Below are positions 2,452 to 13,312 of a DNA stretch of 13,312 bases, one piece after another. A program made the translations under genes and the position numbers. Positions within the stretch are counted from its first letter, which is position 1. Every line of letters begins with the position of its first letter. This stretch comes from an uncultured Acidobacteriota bacterium (GTDB lineage Bacteria; Acidobacteriota; JAAYUB01), in assembly GCA_937925645.1 (NCBI GenBank), contig CALAMB010000304.1, forward strand, positions 1 through 13,312. The letters are read 5' to 3'. The notes beneath the pieces were generated by a model that saw nothing but the letters and a program-made list of their open reading frames with translations, had not been told where the DNA came from and ran no database searches.

Positions 2452-2480
2452 GCGAGGTCTGAAGATGTCCGTGGAGATCA

Positions 2481-2582
2481 TTCACCGCAGAGACGCACAG
2501 ACGCGAAGAAATCCAACTGATCTGTCTGCTGACAACCAGGGCGTCTGCGTCTCCTCTGCGTCTCAGCGCCTCTGCGGTAAAT
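2481..2582. repeat. Inverted-repeat element A (TTCACCGCAGAG family)
   Basis: This fills the fdrA-allG gap. The left arm begins TTCACCGCAGAGACGC at 2481. The right arm ends at 2582, and its reverse complement begins TTTACCGCAGAGGCGC; about 20 of the first 24 positions pair. The RNA would fold into an imperfect hairpin about 100 nt long. The same family occurs again at 7233-7331. The element starts 29 bases after the fdrA stop and ends just before the allG ribosome site (AGGAG at 2586-2590). Its sequence is clearly repeat-like rather than coding. Confidence 0.85.
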
Positions 2583-2595
2583 AGCAGGAGTACCG

Positions 2596-4002
2596 ATGCC
2601 TATCGAGGACTTGTTTGGTGACGGATTGAAGGTGATCAACATCGGCCTGGAGAGCTTCGCCACCGGCATCCGGCAGGCGGGCGGGGAGGCGGTCCACGTG
2701 GAGTGGCGTCCGCCGGCCGAGATCGCGCCCGGTCTGATGGAACGCGTCCGGGCGCACGCCGGGGCGATCCGGACCGCCAACGCCGAAGCGGCGAAGCGTT
2801 TTCTCGCGGGGGCCCCCTTCGTCGTGGGGATGGGCCGGGCCGGGGAGGTCATCCCCGGGATGCGGCGGGATCTTCTGCTCCACGCCGGTCCGCCGGTGGA
2901 CTGGGCGCGGATGTGCGGCCCCATGCGCGGCGCCGTCCTGGGCGCCCTGATCTACGAGGGGATGGCCGCCACGCCCGCCGACGCGGAAAGACTGGCCGCC
3001 GCGGGCAAGGTTTCTTTCGCCCCCTGCCACGAGCACGGCGCCGTCGGGCCCATGGCCGGCGTGGTGTCGTGGTCCATGCCGGTGTTCGTCATCCGCAACG
3101 AGACCTTCGGCAACCTCGCCTTCACGACGCAGAACGAGGGGCTCGGCAAGGTCCTCCGCTACGGGGCCTATGGCGAGGACGTCATCCGCCGCCTGAAGTG
3201 GATGGAGGAGACGCTCTATCCCGCCCTGCGGCAGGCCGTCGAGCACCTGGGCCGGATCGACCTCAAGGCCGTCATCGCCCAGGCCCTCCACATGGGGGAC
3301 GAGGTCCACAACCGCAACCGGGCGGCCACCTCGCTCCTGTACCGGACGCTGGCGCCGGCGGTGGTGCGCACGGCCCCCGACCCTGGCACGGCGGCCGCGG
3401 TGCTCGAGTTCATCGGCGGCAACGACCATTTTTTCCTCAACCTCTCCATGGCCGCCTGCAAGGCGCTGCTGGATCCCCTGGCGGGAATCCCCGGCTGCAG
3501 CCTCGTGACGGTCATGGCGCGCAACGGCACCGAGTTCGGAGTGAAGCTCGCGGGCACGGGCGGGCGATGGTTCACGGGGCCGGCCCCGGTGCCCGACGCC
3601 CTCTATTTCCCCGGCTTTTCCAAGGCCGATGCCAATCCGGACATCGGTGACAGCGCCATCACCGAGACGGGCAGCCTCGGCGGATTCGCCATCGCCGCGG
3701 CCCCGGCCATCGTGCAGTTCGTCGGGGGGAGCGCCGCCGACGCCGCGCAGTACACCCTGCAGATGTACGAGATCACCGAGACCGAGCACACCGCCTGGCA
3801 GATCCCCGGACTCAACTTCCGCGGGACGCCGGTGGGGATCGACGCCGTGAAGGTGGTCTCGACGGGGATTCTCCCATTCATCGACACCGGCGTCGCCCAC
3901 CGGGACGCCGGCGTCGGGCAGGTGGGCGCGGGGGTCCTGACCGCACCCATGGAGCCGTTCCGGAGAGCGTTCGAGGCCTTCGCGGAAACACTAAATCAAT
4001 GA
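2596..4002 (+). CDS. allG: DUF1116 protein, AllG (YlbE)-like subunit of oxamate carbamoyltransferase
   Basis: A 468-residue DUF1116 protein, full length for the family. Conserved blocks visible in order are CHEHGAVGPMAG (144-155), MGDEVHNRNRA (233-243), GGNDHFFLN, ARNGTEFGVK, GDSAITETGSLGGFA and, near the end, FIDTGVAHRDAGVGQVGAG. This is the homologue of E. coli YlbE/AllG, the third component of oxamate carbamoyltransferase. Start choice: ATG at 2596 with AGGAG 5 bases upstream, immediately after the inverted repeat. The stop is followed one base later by the next inverted-repeat element. With allH and fdrA it forms a complete set, so carbamoyl phosphate formation is expected. A carbamate kinase, the usual partner, is not in the window and could lie upstream of base 1. 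Confidence 0.92.
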   Translation: MPIEDLFGDGLKVINIGLESFATGIRQAGGEAVHVEWRPPAEIAPGLMERVRAHAGAIRTANAEAAKRFLAGAPFVVGMGRAGEVIPGMRRDLLLHAGPPVDWARMCGPMRGAVLGALIYEGMAATPADAERLAAAGKVSFAPCHEHGAVGPMAGVVSWSMPVFVIRNETFGNLAFTTQNEGLGKVLRYGAYGEDVIRRLKWMEETLYPALRQAVEHLGRIDLKAVIAQALHMGDEVHNRNRAATSLLYRTLAPAVVRTAPDPGTAAAVLEFIGGNDHFFLNLSMAACKALLDPLAGIPGCSLVTVMARNGTEFGVKLAGTGGRWFTGPAPVPDALYFPGFSKADANPDIGDSAITETGSLGGFAIAAAPAIVQFVGGSAADAAQYTLQMYEITETEHTAWQIPGLNFRGTPVGIDAVKVVSTGILPFIDTGVAHRDAGVGQVGAGVLTAPMEPFRRAFEAFAETLNQ

Positions 4003-4003
4003 A

Positions 4004-4169
4004 ACCACGAAATACACGAAATACACAAAAGGGTTTGGGGAATCCGAATCGAGGTCGGCATCGGGATCGAGAATCTGATTCCGATCGCGCTCGGTCATTT
4101 AACCTGATGCCGAAAACGATTCCGATTTGGACCTTGAAACCCTTTTGTGTATTTCGTGTATTTCGTGGT
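4004..4169. repeat. Inverted-repeat element B (ACCACGAAATACACG family), perfect 33-bp ends
   Basis: The left arm (4004-4036) and right arm (4137-4169) are exact reverse complements over 33 bases, starting ACCACGAAATACACGAAA and finishing in AAAAGGGTTT. Complementarity continues imperfectly inside: GAATCG...TCGGCATC on the left matches the reverse complement of the right interior. The whole 166-base element should therefore fold as one long hairpin with a core rich in ATCGG-like motifs. It starts one base after the allG stop and ends 8 bases before the ribosome site of the cyclase gene. The open frames crossing it are artefacts of the repeat. Confidence 0.93.
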
Positions 4170-4186: not shown

Positions 4187-5005
4187 ATGCAAAATGACAA
4201 GTTCTTGCAGTTCATGAGCGGGGTGCGGATGGTGGACCTGACCCAGCGGCTGAGCGTGCACACGCCGCCCTGGCCCAGCTACATGCCCCTGGGGATCCAG
4301 TACTTCAAGCGTATCGCCGGGGCCCACATGGGGCAGGGCGCCAACGGCCAGATCATCACCACCAGCAATCATGTGGGCACCCACATGGATGGCGAGGTGC
4401 ACTTCCATCCCAGCGGGCGCCCCATCGGGGACGTGCCCATGGAGGAATGGGTGGGCCCGGGCGCCGTGGCCGACATCTCGGACGAGGTGTCGGACTACAG
4501 CCTGTACAGTCCCGAGATGATCACCCGGAAAGTGGCGGTGCAAAAGGGCGACATCCTGATCATCAACACCGGTTACCACCGCTACGCCTGGGACCAGCCC
4601 GAGGCCGACGAGCTGCGCTACTTCGTCAAACACCCCGGTCCGGGGCCGGGATTCCACGAGTGGGCGCTGGACATGGAGCTGAAGTGGATCGGCGTGGACT
4701 GCGGCTCGGCGGATCACCCCATGAACACCATCATCCGGAACTGGCACCCCGCCCGCTTCCTGGAGGCGGAGGCCAAGCTGAAGCAGGACCACGGCCAGGC
4801 GTGGGACGAGATGTTCCCGCCCGACGTCTACTACCAGGTGATGCACCTGAAACTCTTCCCGAAGAAACTGGTGCACGCCGAGAACCTGGGCGGCGAGATC
4901 GACCGGGTCAGCAACCAGCGGGTGTGGATCGGCTGCTTCCCGCTGCGCGGCATTGAGCTGGAGTCGTCCATGTGCCGCATCGTCGCCCTGCTGCCACCAC
5001 AGTGA
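4187..5005 (+). CDS. Cyclase-family (kynurenine formamidase-like) metal-dependent hydrolase
   Basis: A 272-residue protein starting MQNDKFLQFMSG. It contains the cyclase-family (PF04199) metal motif HVGTHMDGEVH at residues 62-72, giving His62, His66, Asp68 and His72 as metal ligands. GDILIINTGYHRYAW and a later HAENLGGEID segment are also typical of the family. Members hydrolyse amide or ring bonds, for example N-formylkynurenine and isatin; the family name does not fix a substrate. Between an oxamate carbamoyltransferase set and a molybdenum hydroxylase, a ring-opening or amide-hydrolysing step on an oxidised N-heterocycle is plausible (inference). No signal peptide is seen. The stop is directly followed by the left arm of an inverted-repeat element. 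Confidence 0.87.
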   Translation: MQNDKFLQFMSGVRMVDLTQRLSVHTPPWPSYMPLGIQYFKRIAGAHMGQGANGQIITTSNHVGTHMDGEVHFHPSGRPIGDVPMEEWVGPGAVADISDEVSDYSLYSPEMITRKVAVQKGDILIINTGYHRYAWDQPEADELRYFVKHPGPGPGFHEWALDMELKWIGVDCGSADHPMNTIIRNWHPARFLEAEAKLKQDHGQAWDEMFPPDVYYQVMHLKLFPKKLVHAENLGGEIDRVSNQRVWIGCFPLRGIELESSMCRIVALLPPQ

Positions 5006-5081
5006 ACCACGAAATACACGAAACACACGAAAGGGGTCCAGCGGTTGGCAAGTTGATCGGGCGGAATTGACACAGTGATCC

Positions 5082-5086
5082 GGAGG
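5082..5086 (+). promoter_or_regulatory. Ribosome binding site of the GxxExxY gene
   Basis: GGAGG ends 8 bases before the ATG at 5095. This favours 5095 over the adjacent in-frame GTG at 5092. Confidence 0.65.
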
Positions 5087-5094
5087 ATGGTGTG

Positions 5095-5544
5095 ATGGAG
5101 GGAACCGACGTGACGTGGCCGGACGAGTGGCGCGGTTTTCTTGAAGTGCACGAGCCGGAGGGGGCATATGACACGCTGCTATACCGCGATGAAGTTTATG
5201 CGATCCAAGGAGCTGTGTTCGAGGTCTATCGGGAGATGGGCTGCGGTTTTCTGGAATCCGTTTACCAGGAGTGCATGGAGCGGGAGTTGACGGAACGAAA
5301 GATCCCATTCGAATCACAGAAAGAGCTGAGCCTGATCTATAAACAAAAAGCGCTGAGACAGACGTTCAAGCCGGACCTGGTGTGTTATGGGAAGATCATC
5401 GTCGAGTTGAAAGCGGTCAAAGAGATCAATGACCAACTCCGCGCCCAGGTGTTCAACTATCTTCGCACGAGCAAATTGCGTCTCGGATTGCTGGTCAACT
5501 TCGGCCATTACCCCAAAGCCACCGTCGAACGGATCATCCTTTGA
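5095..5544 (+). CDS. GxxExxY protein, PD-(D/E)XK nuclease-like
   Basis: A 149-residue member of the GxxExxY family (PD-(D/E)XK nuclease superfamily). The name-giving motif is GFLESVY at 51-57. A nuclease-like core follows: PD at 93-94, then VELK with Glu104 and Lys106 (the PD...ExK pattern), then Gln118 and NYL at 121-123, and a family-typical GLLVNFG end. All putative catalytic residues are present, so the gene looks intact. The first 30 or so residues are not typical of the family. The biological role of the family is not established. Codon use is less G+C-rich than the metabolic neighbours, and the gene sits between the two ACCACGAAATACACG arms. It therefore looks like an insertion into the operon rather than part of the pathway. 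Confidence 0.88.
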   Translation: MEGTDVTWPDEWRGFLEVHEPEGAYDTLLYRDEVYAIQGAVFEVYREMGCGFLESVYQECMERELTERKIPFESQKELSLIYKQKALRQTFKPDLVCYGKIIVELKAVKEINDQLRAQVFNYLRTSKLRLGLLVNFGHYPKATVERIIL

Positions 5545-5632
5545 GCAATTATAATTGGCGGTGCATGAAGTGATCTCCATGATTGAAACCAGTTCGTGTA
5601 TTTTGTGTATTTCGTGGTAACGAGGAGCGAGT

Positions 5633-6523
5633 ATGCCCATCCTGCATGATTTCGAGTACGTGAAGCCGGAGACGGTGGACGAGGCGGTGGCCGTGCTCTC
5701 GCGGCACGGCGCCGACGCTGCAGTCCTGGCCGGCGGGACCGACCTGGTGGGATGGCTGCGCGACGAGATCGTCGCGCCGGCGGTGGTCGTGGACATCAAA
5801 TCCATTTCCGAACTGTGCGCCATCACCCGCGCCGACGGCTGCCTGCGCATCGGCGCCGCCGTGCCGTTCAACGTCATCCACCGACACGCCGAAGTGGTCC
5901 GCCTCCTTCCTGTCCTGGCGGAAGCGGCGGGGCGGGTGGGATCGTGCGGACTGCGCAACCGCGCCACGCTGGCGGGCAACATCTGCTCGGCCGTCCCCTG
6001 CTGCGACGGCGGTCCGCCCCTGCTGGTCCTGGAGGCGGAGGTGGAGTTGGCCGGTCCCGGCGGGCTGCGCCGCGTCCCCGTCACCGACTGGTTCATCGAG
6101 AAGCGCCGCACGGCGCGCGCCGCCGACGAACTGGTCACGGCGGTCCGGATCCCCCTGCCGGCGGAACCCCACGGCGCCGCCTACATCAAGCTGGGGCGCT
6201 ATCGCGGGGAGGATCTCGCCCAGGCCTCGGTGGCGGTCCTGTCGCTGCCCGGCCATGTCCGGCGCGTCGCGTTCGGCGCCCTGGCGGCCAAGCCCTTCCG
6301 GGCCGGGAAGCTCGAGGCGCTTCTGGCGGGCCGGCCGCTCACGGACGCCCTGATCGATGAAGCCAGGAGTCTTCTGTCCGAGGAGATCGCGCCCATCACC
6401 GACGTGCGGGCGACGAAGGAATACCGCCGCCTGGCGACGGCGGTCATGCTGGAGCGGGCCCTCCGGGCGGCGGACGACCGGCTGGCGGGCCGTGGCCCCG
6501 CCTATGGAGATAGACTAATTTGA
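5633..6523 (+). CDS. FAD-binding subunit of a xanthine dehydrogenase-family molybdenum hydroxylase
   Basis: A 296-residue medium subunit. The FAD-binding PCMH domain shows LAGGTDL (32-38) and LRNRATLAGNICSAVPCCD (107-125), the second FAD-contact segment. A C-terminal CO-dehydrogenase flavoprotein-type domain follows from about residue 180 (YIKLGRYRGEDLAQASVAV). Length is normal, and there is no extra insertion of the kind that carries a 4Fe-4S cluster in 4-hydroxybenzoyl-CoA reductase. It passes electrons from the Fe-S subunit to an acceptor. The ATG is preceded by GAGGAG 5 bases upstream, just after the right arm of element C. The gene order FAD, Fe-S, Moco is complete. A cytoplasmic enzyme is expected, since no twin-arginine signal is visible. 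Confidence 0.92.
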   Translation: MPILHDFEYVKPETVDEAVAVLSRHGADAAVLAGGTDLVGWLRDEIVAPAVVVDIKSISELCAITRADGCLRIGAAVPFNVIHRHAEVVRLLPVLAEAAGRVGSCGLRNRATLAGNICSAVPCCDGGPPLLVLEAEVELAGPGGLRRVPVTDWFIEKRRTARAADELVTAVRIPLPAEPHGAAYIKLGRYRGEDLAQASVAVLSLPGHVRRVAFGALAAKPFRAGKLEALLAGRPLTDALIDEARSLLSEEIAPITDVRATKEYRRLATAVMLERALRAADDRLAGRGPAYGDRLI

Positions 6524-6727
6524 ACCACGAAATACACGAAATACACCAAAGGGATATCCGGACCGAAATCGGGATCGGTATCGGTATCGTTATCGGTATC
6601 GAAATCGGTATCGATGGCCGGAATCGATCCGCGAATCGATGGTCGATTGCGACCCCGATACCGATGCCGATTTGGGCAATGAATCCAGGATTGAAATGCC
6701 TTTCGTGTATTTCGTGTATTTCGTGGT
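6524..6727. repeat. Inverted-repeat element D (ACCACGAAATACACG family) with hexamer core
   Basis: The left end ACCACGAAATACACGAAA begins on the base after the FAD-subunit stop. The right end (6701-6727) is its reverse complement, with one mismatch in about 28 positions. Inside, AAATCGGGATCGGTATCG on the left pairs with the right interior (around 6656-6673) at all but one position. The roughly 200-base element can therefore form a long hairpin. Its ends match elements B and C. The downstream gene's start lies 24 bases after the element. Confidence 0.92.
6568..6614 (+). repeat. Period-6 (ATCGGT)n-like repeat in the core of element D
   Basis: A run of degenerate hexamers of the ATCGGT type, about eight units. 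It would translate to an alternating Gly-Ile pattern (GIGIVIGIEIG), which is a repeat artefact and not a protein. Element B's core carries related but less regular ATCGG-like motifs. Confidence 0.8.
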
Positions 6728-7232: not shown

Positions 7233-7331
7233 ATTCACCGCGGAGGCGCGGAGACGCAGAGGAGATATTTATCCTGTTTTCAATTCAATCAATAATGGAT
7301 TGCTCGGCGCCTCTGCATCTCTGCGGTGAAT
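7233..7331. repeat. Inverted-repeat element E (TTCACCGCAGAG family)
   Basis: The left arm (from 7233) begins ATTCACCGCGGAGGCGC. The right arm (7306-7331) reverse-complements to ATTCACCGCAGAGATGC, pairing at about 20 of 25 positions. The AT-rich middle (around 7263-7300) is unpaired. It is the same family as element A and begins 13 bases after the Fe-S subunit stop. About 57 bases separate it from the Moco-subunit ATG. Confidence 0.85.
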
Positions 7332-7388
7332 GACGGATCGGAGTGAGTGACAATTTTCAAGATTCGGGTCTTCTGACGGAGGTCGGAC

Positions 7389-11903: not shown

Positions 11904-11953
11904 TCAGTTTTCGGAACTAAGGGTCGGAGATTCGAACCCCTCCGGGTGCGCCA
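11904..11953 (+). pseudogene. Degenerate 3' half of a tRNA-Arg-like sequence, ending in CCA
   Basis: The sequence has the spacing of a tRNA from the anticodon arm to the 3' end. An anticodon arm TCAGTTTTCGGAACTAA has 4 of 5 stem pairs and a 7-base loop reading TCG (Arg). It is followed by a GGGTC variable loop, a T arm around ATTCGAA with two mispairs, then CGGGTGC, discriminator G and CCA. The expected 5' acceptor strand (GCRCCCG) and a D arm are absent in the preceding 30 bases, so it cannot be a working tRNA. A piece running from anticodon arm to CCA is what tRNA-targeting integrative elements leave at an attachment site. Decay of a whole tRNA gene is the alternative. Confidence 0.55.
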
Positions 11954-12009
11954 TGTTTCTGCCGATTGCCCGGGATCGGGACAGTCGCCGCCGGCAGAGA
12001 TTCAAACGC

Positions 12010-12113
12010 TTCAAACAGGCGAACTGAGCTTCAGGTGTTTCAAACAGGTGAACCGGGCTTCAAGCGATTCAAACAAGTGAACCGAGCCTCAAACGCTGTA
12101 AACAGGTGAAGCC
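12010..12113. repeat. 29-bp direct tandem repeat, about 3.5 copies
   Basis: Units start at 12010, 12039, 12068 and 12097 (the last partial). They share the core TTCAAACAGGTGAACCGAGC with a few substitutions each. A half unit (ATTCAAACGC) precedes the array at 12000-12009. The period is not a multiple of three and no start or ribosome site precedes it, so a repeat protein is unlikely. There are no spacers, so it is not a CRISPR array. It lies between the tRNA-like fragment and the 3' end of the radical SAM gene. Confidence 0.8.
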
Positions 12114-13267: not shown

Positions 13268-13312
13268 AGATCGGAAGAGCGTCGTGTAGGGAAAGAGTGT
13301 AGATCTCGGTGG
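13268..13312. other. Illumina TruSeq adapter contamination (not genomic)
   Basis: The last 45 bases begin AGATCGGAAGAGCGTCGTG and continue as an exact match, from memory, to the reverse complement of the TruSeq universal (P5-side) adapter, through GTAGATCTCGGTGG. This is a library artefact left at the contig end. Any codons translated from it, and any start codon placed in it, are false. Confidence 0.97.

Follow-up and report, generated by a model that had tools for sequence, protein, structure and literature searches.

A small gene for a GxxExxY protein lies, in the window analysed here (the whole stretch of 13,312 nt), between inverted repeats that elsewhere in the same window enclose only hairpin cores, which raises the question of why a nuclease-like gene should share its ends with gene-less palindromes. 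The first-pass annotation had likened the gene-bearing copy (element C) to an autonomous element and the gene-less copies (B and D) to its non-autonomous derivatives, and supposed that GxxExxY proteins act in spreading or processing the repeats. The reading favoured here, with a probability of roughly 0.72, is that element C would represent the gene-bearing form of a transposase-free mobile element, the nuclease of which recognises the repeats at the element's ends and disseminates them. The available excerpts of two articles mention GxxExxY only in passing (PMC8934634; PMC12085832), and PF13366 occurs in a third (PMC9756366). A full-text literature search returned no account of a mobile element built on a PD-(D/E)XK nuclease alone, and a search with repeat words gave unrelated matches only; preprints and most subscription journals lay outside the scope of both, so that a prior description is possible. 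We know of no case in which PD-(D/E)XK nuclease chemistry moves dispersed repeats.

Element C and the Gene-Less Hairpins of the Window

Element C (5006..5618, forward strand) is bounded by two arms of 35 nt that are 83% complementary and separated by 543 nt (pair I6 of the inverted-repeat search). The left arm (5006..5040, forward strand) consists of three CACGAAA units separated by TA and CA, while the right arm (5584..5618, reverse strand) is inverted and reads CACGAAA, CACAAAA and CACGAAC, the second and third units being changed. The single forward reading frame between the arms (5095..5544, forward strand; ATG at 5095, alternative GTG start at 5092) encodes a GxxExxY protein of 149 amino acids of the PD-(D/E)XK nuclease type, which matches TIGR04256 (E 2.4e-41, 140.7 bits, curated cut-off 35) and, in Pfam, PF13366 PDDEXK_3 only (E 2.3e-41, 141.2 bits, curated cut-off 22), so that neither a DDE nor any other transposase is encoded by this frame. 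An alignment of 84 rows shows no variation at G51, E54, Y57, E104 and K106 and a conservation of at least 90% at D94. The predicted active site (5374..5412, forward strand) comprises the conserved columns D94 (5374-5376), E104 (5404-5406) and K106 (5410-5412), the catalytic role of which we assume from the PD-(D/E)XK superfamily. With a G+C content of 0.53 the gene is indeed more A+T-rich than its neighbours (0.65 and 0.72; window 0.67), as the first-pass annotation had noted. The neighbours resemble, in profile searches, an oxamate or purine catabolic cluster with AllH, FdrA-like, AllG and cyclase genes, together with three xanthine-dehydrogenase-type subunits and a xanthine/uracil permease.

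The earlier claim that C has the ends of B and D and yet encloses an intact GxxExxY gene is confirmed, the arm sequence being common to all three. Element B (4004..4169, no strand assigned) has arms of 33 nt at 4004-4036 and 4137-4169 that are fully (100%) complementary (pair I1), and element D (6524..6727, no strand assigned) has arms of 35 nt at 6524-6558 and 6693-6727 with 91% complementarity (pair I3). Folded as single-stranded DNA, both lie far below their shuffles, with z scores of -12.3 for B and -11.6 for D. Two further gene-less hairpins without assigned strand, A (2478..2582; fold z -3.5) and E (7233..7333; pairs I2, I5 and I18; z -3.6; inverted relative to A), belong to the same structural class as B to D, but the likeness stops at the unit sequence, which is CGCAGAG. 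Two specificity classes thus share the window, CACGAAA (B, C and D) and CGCAGAG (A and E). The window holds no cognate gene for A and E; CGCAGAG units flank 17 GxxExxY loci of the set described below.

A scan with a regular expression for three C[AG]C[ACGT][AGC]A[AGT] units at a spacing of 1-4 nt found eight places in the window, each of them at an arm of one of the elements A to E, with left arms matching in forward and right arms in reverse orientation; it misses the right arms of both C and E. Elements B, C and D each start at, or one base past, the TGA stop of the upstream gene (junctions at 4000-4006, 5003-5008 and 6521-6526), as if insertion preferred gene ends or the stop came from the element. 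The core of D (6553-6676) holds ATCGGT hexamers, and in elements such as that of locus L031 the units are separated by hexamers similar to ACGGCA.

Inverted Repeats around GxxExxY Genes across Phyla

The first-pass annotation had proposed a comparison of the flanks of GxxExxY genes with those of random genes. For this, a first set consisted of the best 80 of 208 relatives in one-genome-per-species contigs of many phyla, and four phylum samples (named after the titles of their centre loci) were searched with TIGR04256 so that close relatives would be less over-represented. Matches above the cut-off were found in 95 of 199 genomes of Planctomycetota, 73 of 148 of Bacteroidota, 32 of 200 of Pseudomonadota and 53-54 of 148 in the phylum of a Geobacteraceae genome (hereafter the Geobacteraceae phylum), and several copies per genome were common in this profile search. 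Each genome contributed at most one locus, chosen among the top-scoring matches, so that the sample favours canonical members: 40 from Planctomycetota, hand-picked with matches close to contig ends skipped, and 30 from each of the other three. Removal of two duplicates gave 208 loci, 195 of which have 400 bp on both sides (13 do not).

When the 400 bp upstream of a gene were locally aligned with the reverse-complemented 400 bp downstream of it, the score was at least 31 at 133 of 195 GxxExxY loci, but at only 8 of 391 control ORFs (Fisher p 7e-72) and in 2 of 975 dinucleotide shuffles. The excess anticipated at these genes is therefore present, and GxxExxY genes do not generally lack flanking repeats. 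By set the counts are 47/71 (first set), 31/38 (Planctomycetota), 22/29 (Geobacteraceae phylum), 13/29 (Bacteroidota) and 20/28 (Pseudomonadota), and the control ORFs come from the first set (7/344) and Planctomycetota (1/47) only, the loci of the other sets being too short. The remaining 62 of the 195 loci fall below the threshold, at the highest rate in Bacteroidota (16/29). The arms are composed of three units, each ~9 nt long and mostly of the form C[A/G]C[N][R]A[A/G/T]. Among loci with flanks of at least 300 bp (n=197), any three-unit motif occurs at 150 compared with 47 of 372 control ORFs, and the strict inverted three-unit motif at 88 compared with 2 of 372 control ORFs and 0 of 3940 shuffles. 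The segment bounded by the inverted repeats has a median length of 520 nt over the 133 loci, which is room for little beyond the GxxExxY gene.

Three GxxExxY genes follow each other in the same orientation at G014:C3:169508-172251, where every gene has its own pair of arms, and at G306:C32:27330-30526, and two GxxExxY domains lie within one reading frame of ~288 amino acids at G035:C14:39384-40145 and similar loci.

Coevolution of Protein and Repeat

The unit type could be read at 168 of the 208 loci and was mapped onto a FastTree phylogeny of the proteins. Base 7 of the unit (A, G or T) requires 4 changes on this tree, compared with 62.6 (minimum 51) when shuffled freely and 18.9 (minimum 15) when shuffled within sets, that is, within the four phyla and the first set of mixed phyla (200 shuffles of each kind). 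For the four phylum samples alone, in which the set equals the host phylum, base 7 needs 3 changes compared with 15.4 (minimum 13) by either shuffle. Bases 2, 4 and 5 as well as the full type likewise need fewer changes than any of the 200 free or 200 within-set shuffles, although for base 4 the margin within sets is narrow (19 against a minimum of 21; 16 against a minimum of 17 in the four samples). Fewer changes than in within-set shuffles indicate that the repeat is tied more tightly to the protein than to the phylum of the host.

Within the CACGRAA clade, to which the window's protein belongs, the identity of residue 38 goes with unit base 5: Arg38 occurs with G in 29 of 29 genes and Gln38 or Met38 with A in 29 of 30, so that the rule fits 58 of 61 genes, the other three being single cases of Gln38 with G, Ile38 with G and Leu38 with A. 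The mutual information with base 5 is 0.86 bit for residue 38 and 0.54 for residue 34 in this clade (shuffled maximum 0.24), and in the G-type clade 0.43 for residue 34 and 0.40 for residue 35 (shuffled maximum 0.24), where Ile38 is found with both states of base 5. For unit bases 2 and 4 the covariation in the G-type clade does not exceed the shuffled maxima, and a residue code for these bases is not claimed; nor are the correlates of base 7 (Tyr45/His45 and others) claimed as contacts, since they exist at the level of clades only. The window itself, with Gln38 and CACGAAA, is in line with the rule.

Eight disjoint tree pairs that differ in base 5, some of which may run over unsupported branches, show residue 38 agreeing in seven, unchanged in one and opposing in none (p 0.016). 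Restricted to supported branches, a mean of 4.1 pairs agree and 0 oppose for residue 38 (median p 0.125) and 3.2 agree and 0 oppose for residue 34 (median p 0.25), numbers that give too little power. A later test drew on 40 further genes from genomes already used, so that it is not fully independent of the first set; 13 had no unit consensus, and of the 27 with one, one repeated a known gene and three had unreadable residues. Thr34 or Arg38 was found with G in 9 of 9 and Gln, Met or Val38 with A in 7 of 7, so that all 16 decidable genes agree with a combined rule for residues 34 and 38, the exact wording of which was fixed after these genes had been seen. Ser34 with Ile38 was mixed (4 A and 1 G, n=5), while Val34 with Ile38 (L287) and Ala38 (L299) each went with A. 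The dispersed repeats of 12 genomes gave the same picture by majority base: Arg38 with G in 4 of 4 and Gln38 with A in 5 of 5, one genome with Thr34 and Ile38 having G and two lacking a readable residue.

Residues 34, 38 and 45 all lie on one helix (residues 31-48) of an AlphaFold2 model of the window's protein (pLDDT 87.8, pTM 0.80), which as assigned by DSSP is the predicted recognition helix (5185..5238, forward strand; Val34 at 5194-5196, Gln38 at 5206-5208). Arginine with guanine and glutamine with adenine are textbook contacts, and from the model and the covariation we infer that the helix reads unit base 5 through residues 34 and 38. Coevolution and covariation together tie the protein, at the level of sequence comparison, to the repeat sequence itself. 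What both argue for is recognition, not mobility, and they would also suit a resident repeat-processing or repeat-limiting nuclease that recognises and processes palindromes (by cutting hairpins or cruciforms) without mobilising them, its gene being kept beside its sites. This alternative, which can also draw on a predicted fold that may resemble those of Cas4, restriction enzymes and Hjc, is considered unlikely, since the arms around the gene are similar to the arms of dispersed hairpins; evidence on mobility that bears on it is given below.

Dispersed Hairpins in Repeat-Rich Genomes

In a Gallionella genome (G022), 93 distinct arms form 31 convergent pairs of 68-278 bp, one divergent and one same-strand pair. 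Only four GxxExxY family matches accompany them, that is, few gene copies and many hairpins, as in RAYT/REPIN systems. Most outer flanks of the nine hairpins mapped in 30 loci have a further A-rich stretch in common, which suggests that the true ends probably lie 15-20 nt past the units in this genome. The hairpins are mostly intergenic, with midpoints outside ORFs of more than 450 nt in 8 of the 9 mapped, while ORFs cover 70% of the 30 loci. Such a location, together with the DNA binding implied by covariation, could suit arms that serve as operators for self-regulation of GxxExxY, the dispersed hairpins being terminators or regulatory sites. An operator, however, needs neither a symmetric pair of arms around the gene, nor dozens of gene-less copies, nor the presence and absence of whole elements, so that this explanation is hardly credible.

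A pattern for the A-type unit is found in all 36 genomes that hold the chosen loci of the first set (1-107 hits each), while the pattern read backwards has 0 or 1. Some single A-type hits look like coding repeats. In Planctomycetota 28 of 34 genomes with at least one A-type hit have a family match, compared with 68 of 165 without, and in the Geobacteraceae phylum 17 of 25 genomes with a hit, compared with 53-54 of 148 overall. Since the pattern covers the A-type unit only, most family members of Planctomycetota lie in genomes without it, and the counts were dropped as a test of the whole family. The first-pass annotation had regarded repeat-rich genomes with no homologue as counting against its hypothesis; these exist, but as a minority (6/34 in Planctomycetota and 8/25 in the Geobacteraceae phylum), and four have at least nine A-type hits with no TIGR04256 match (G062, 9; G084, 25; G087, 63; G270, 21). 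Gene loss, assembly gaps or another enzyme are candidate readings of these four.

Another enzyme would be central if an HUH transposase of the RAYT or TIRYT type, encoded elsewhere in the genome, moved the repeats and GxxExxY were a passenger. RAYT-type systems form similar hairpins and terminal inverted repeats flank some RAYT-like genes, as stated in the excerpt consulted (PMC3733652), and some repeat-rich genomes are without a GxxExxY match. A passenger is not expected to covary with bases of the repeat through specific residues, though, profile scanning of the window's genes gave no transposase, and a single small gene is all that the elements can accommodate; a passenger role is thus regarded as very unlikely.

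Empty Sites and Proposed Mobility

The first-pass annotation had suggested looking for orthologous sites that lack the element, and such sites exist for two gene-bearing elements of Gallionella. For the first, loci were read in 19 relatives (of 58 with matches, all of the same genus): 15 are empty with a gap of 8-120 bp, one holds only a hairpin at the same site (L219 of genome G036), one has 877 bp of other sequence and two are incomplete. In G022 this element is ordered as arm, gene and then a hairpin like that of G036. For the second, 26 of 29 other loci were read (three with arm-only matches were left out), and 20 of the 26 have both flanks, none with the element (gap -10 to 305 bp), the other six being incomplete. 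Insertion is a simpler reading for the Gallionella elements than so many losses, and the proposed relation of autonomous and non-autonomous forms gains support from the one site at which some relatives have nothing, one has the hairpin alone and one has the gene. The empty sites are too diverged to fix the ends of the element or a target-site duplication. At L221 the empty site contains a palindrome of the GTAGGTCGGGC type that is similar to a GTAG REP, which suggests that palindromes of different kinds may be drawn to one intergenic position. In a Bacteroidota genus the one relative with matches has the left flank and the gene in common in one stretch, so that the element is seemingly shared and some copies look stable.

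The empty sites also bear on a homing logic, in which the protein would cut an unoccupied chromosomal target and homologous repair would copy the element in. Homing enzymes of the PD-(D/E)XK type are known, one of which, I-Bth0305I, matches the fold of the window's protein weakly (3r3p_B, E 0.078). The sequence that covaries with the protein is, by contrast, in the element's own arms rather than the target, and inspection by eye showed no three-unit arm in the empty sites of the two Gallionella insertions, which leaves homing a slim chance, marginally slimmer than that of a passenger.

Searched with the window's protein as query, by which distant members could be missed, 72,556 plasmid records contain 8 relatives and 50,697 phage records contain none. 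Eight pattern matches in IMG/VR include no relative, PHROGs gave no match for two proteins, and a GxxExxY-annotated protein is on record in an alga virus, according to the excerpt consulted (PMC12085832). Rarity on plasmids and the null result among phage records would suit the resident nuclease, whereas the presence and absence of whole gene-bearing elements between relatives and the common occurrence of several copies per genome speak against it.

A Proposed Transposase-Free Mobile Element

The preferred reading, a mobile element that spreads through its own nuclease, starts from what was observed: arms shared by gene-bearing and gene-less copies, flanking repeats throughout the family, coevolution, covariation, convergent pairing of arms in one genome, and empty sites. 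That the protein moves or processes the repeats is put forward on this basis as a hypothesis. The minimal element of ~0.5 kb would consist of two inverted arms with three units of ~9 nt each around one small PD-(D/E)XK nuclease gene. The protein would bind the unit sequence of its own element, residues 34 and 38 of the helix probably reading base 5 (G being read by Arg and A by Gln), and may act in trans on gene-less copies such as hairpins B and D. We infer that it cuts at or within the arms, probably while these form extruded hairpins or are single-stranded at a replication fork, and that it thereby drives the insertions: host repair and replication would copy the released or nicked element into a new intergenic site or capture it there, with no need for a transposase. 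A broader form of this proposal, favoured by a small degree over its negation, is that GxxExxY genes with tri-unit arms may constitute a multi-phylum class of transposase-free elements in which a lone restriction-like nuclease reads the unit of its own arms by a simple residue-base code, multiplying both themselves and gene-less hairpins; the latter would make up much of the palindromes of the CACGAAA, CACAGAG, CGCAAAG and CACAGAT types that are dispersed in bacterial intergenic regions.

The closest comparison is with REPIN/RAYT systems (REPtrons and TIRtrons), for which the definitions used here are those in the available parts of PMC8049555 and PMC3733652. In both, a gene is bounded by repeats that are also dispersed as inverted pairs forming hairpins, and the protein is linked to the repeat. 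GxxExxY proteins, however, are PD-(D/E)XK nucleases and not HUH tyrosine transposases, so that the HUH Y1 feature is absent, their arms consist of three direct units of ~9 nt, and genomes often have several gene copies. No GTAG/CGTC tag was seen by eye at the outer ends of the arms of the window or of Gallionella; the outer arms start with ACCACG or ACCGC in the window and with GTCCACG in nine Gallionella hairpins. By analogy, the elements would work like RAYT/REPIN, but they lack the defining feature, the HUH transposase, and the chemistry is unrelated.

Gene-bearing and gene-less forms with common terminal inverted repeats, and empty sites, also recall a MITE and its parent transposon, but no DDE transposase was found in element C. 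Casposons (Cas1 transposons), in the parts of the literature consulted, similarly tie a CRISPR-type protein to terminal inverted repeats; unlike them, the element has no Cas1, no polymerase and only one small gene. Like I-Bth0305I-type homing endonucleases the protein is a lone nuclease encoded within a mobile segment, yet its specificity appears to be aimed at the repeats that terminate its own element, which would multiply in the form of dispersed hairpins. From the Cas4/RecB, BamHI/BglII and Hjc groups it differs in that the window genes scanned include no methyltransferase or CRISPR gene. Cas4 has four cysteines for an iron-sulphur cluster, and this signature is not conserved in the 84-row alignment, where only C60 is among the invariant or nearly invariant columns. 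PADLOC assigned no family to the window's protein at E 1e-3 and gave weak matches for two relatives, Cas4b for P0121 (6.9e-4) and PDC-M36A for P0004 (5.4e-5). Sequence matches in the PDB reached E 0.57 and 1.1 only, to endonuclease I chains, presumably of the phage T7 type, and were not used as evidence.

If correct, the proposal would give a function to a large family named only by its motif (at least 7,995 relatives), explain palindromic repeats of several unit types seen in the four sampled phyla and the mixed set, and add a mobile element that needs no enzyme of its own other than a sequence-specific PD-(D/E)XK nuclease. GxxExxY genes and their cognate palindromes across phyla would then point to a type of very small mobile element that has been overlooked. 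The covariation of residues 34 and 38 makes the idea directly testable and may provide a small, readable scaffold for DNA recognition.

Other Features of the Window

Rfam matched nothing in the window; the stretch 11925-11954 resembles the 3' end of a tRNA, and ARAGORN calls no tRNA there. The last ~45 bases (13268-13312) look like an Illumina TruSeq adapter, which we take to be contamination of the contig end, so that the 5' end of the minus-strand radical-SAM reading frame located there is probably artificial. A tandem repeat of 29 bp in 3.9 copies occupies 11997-12110.
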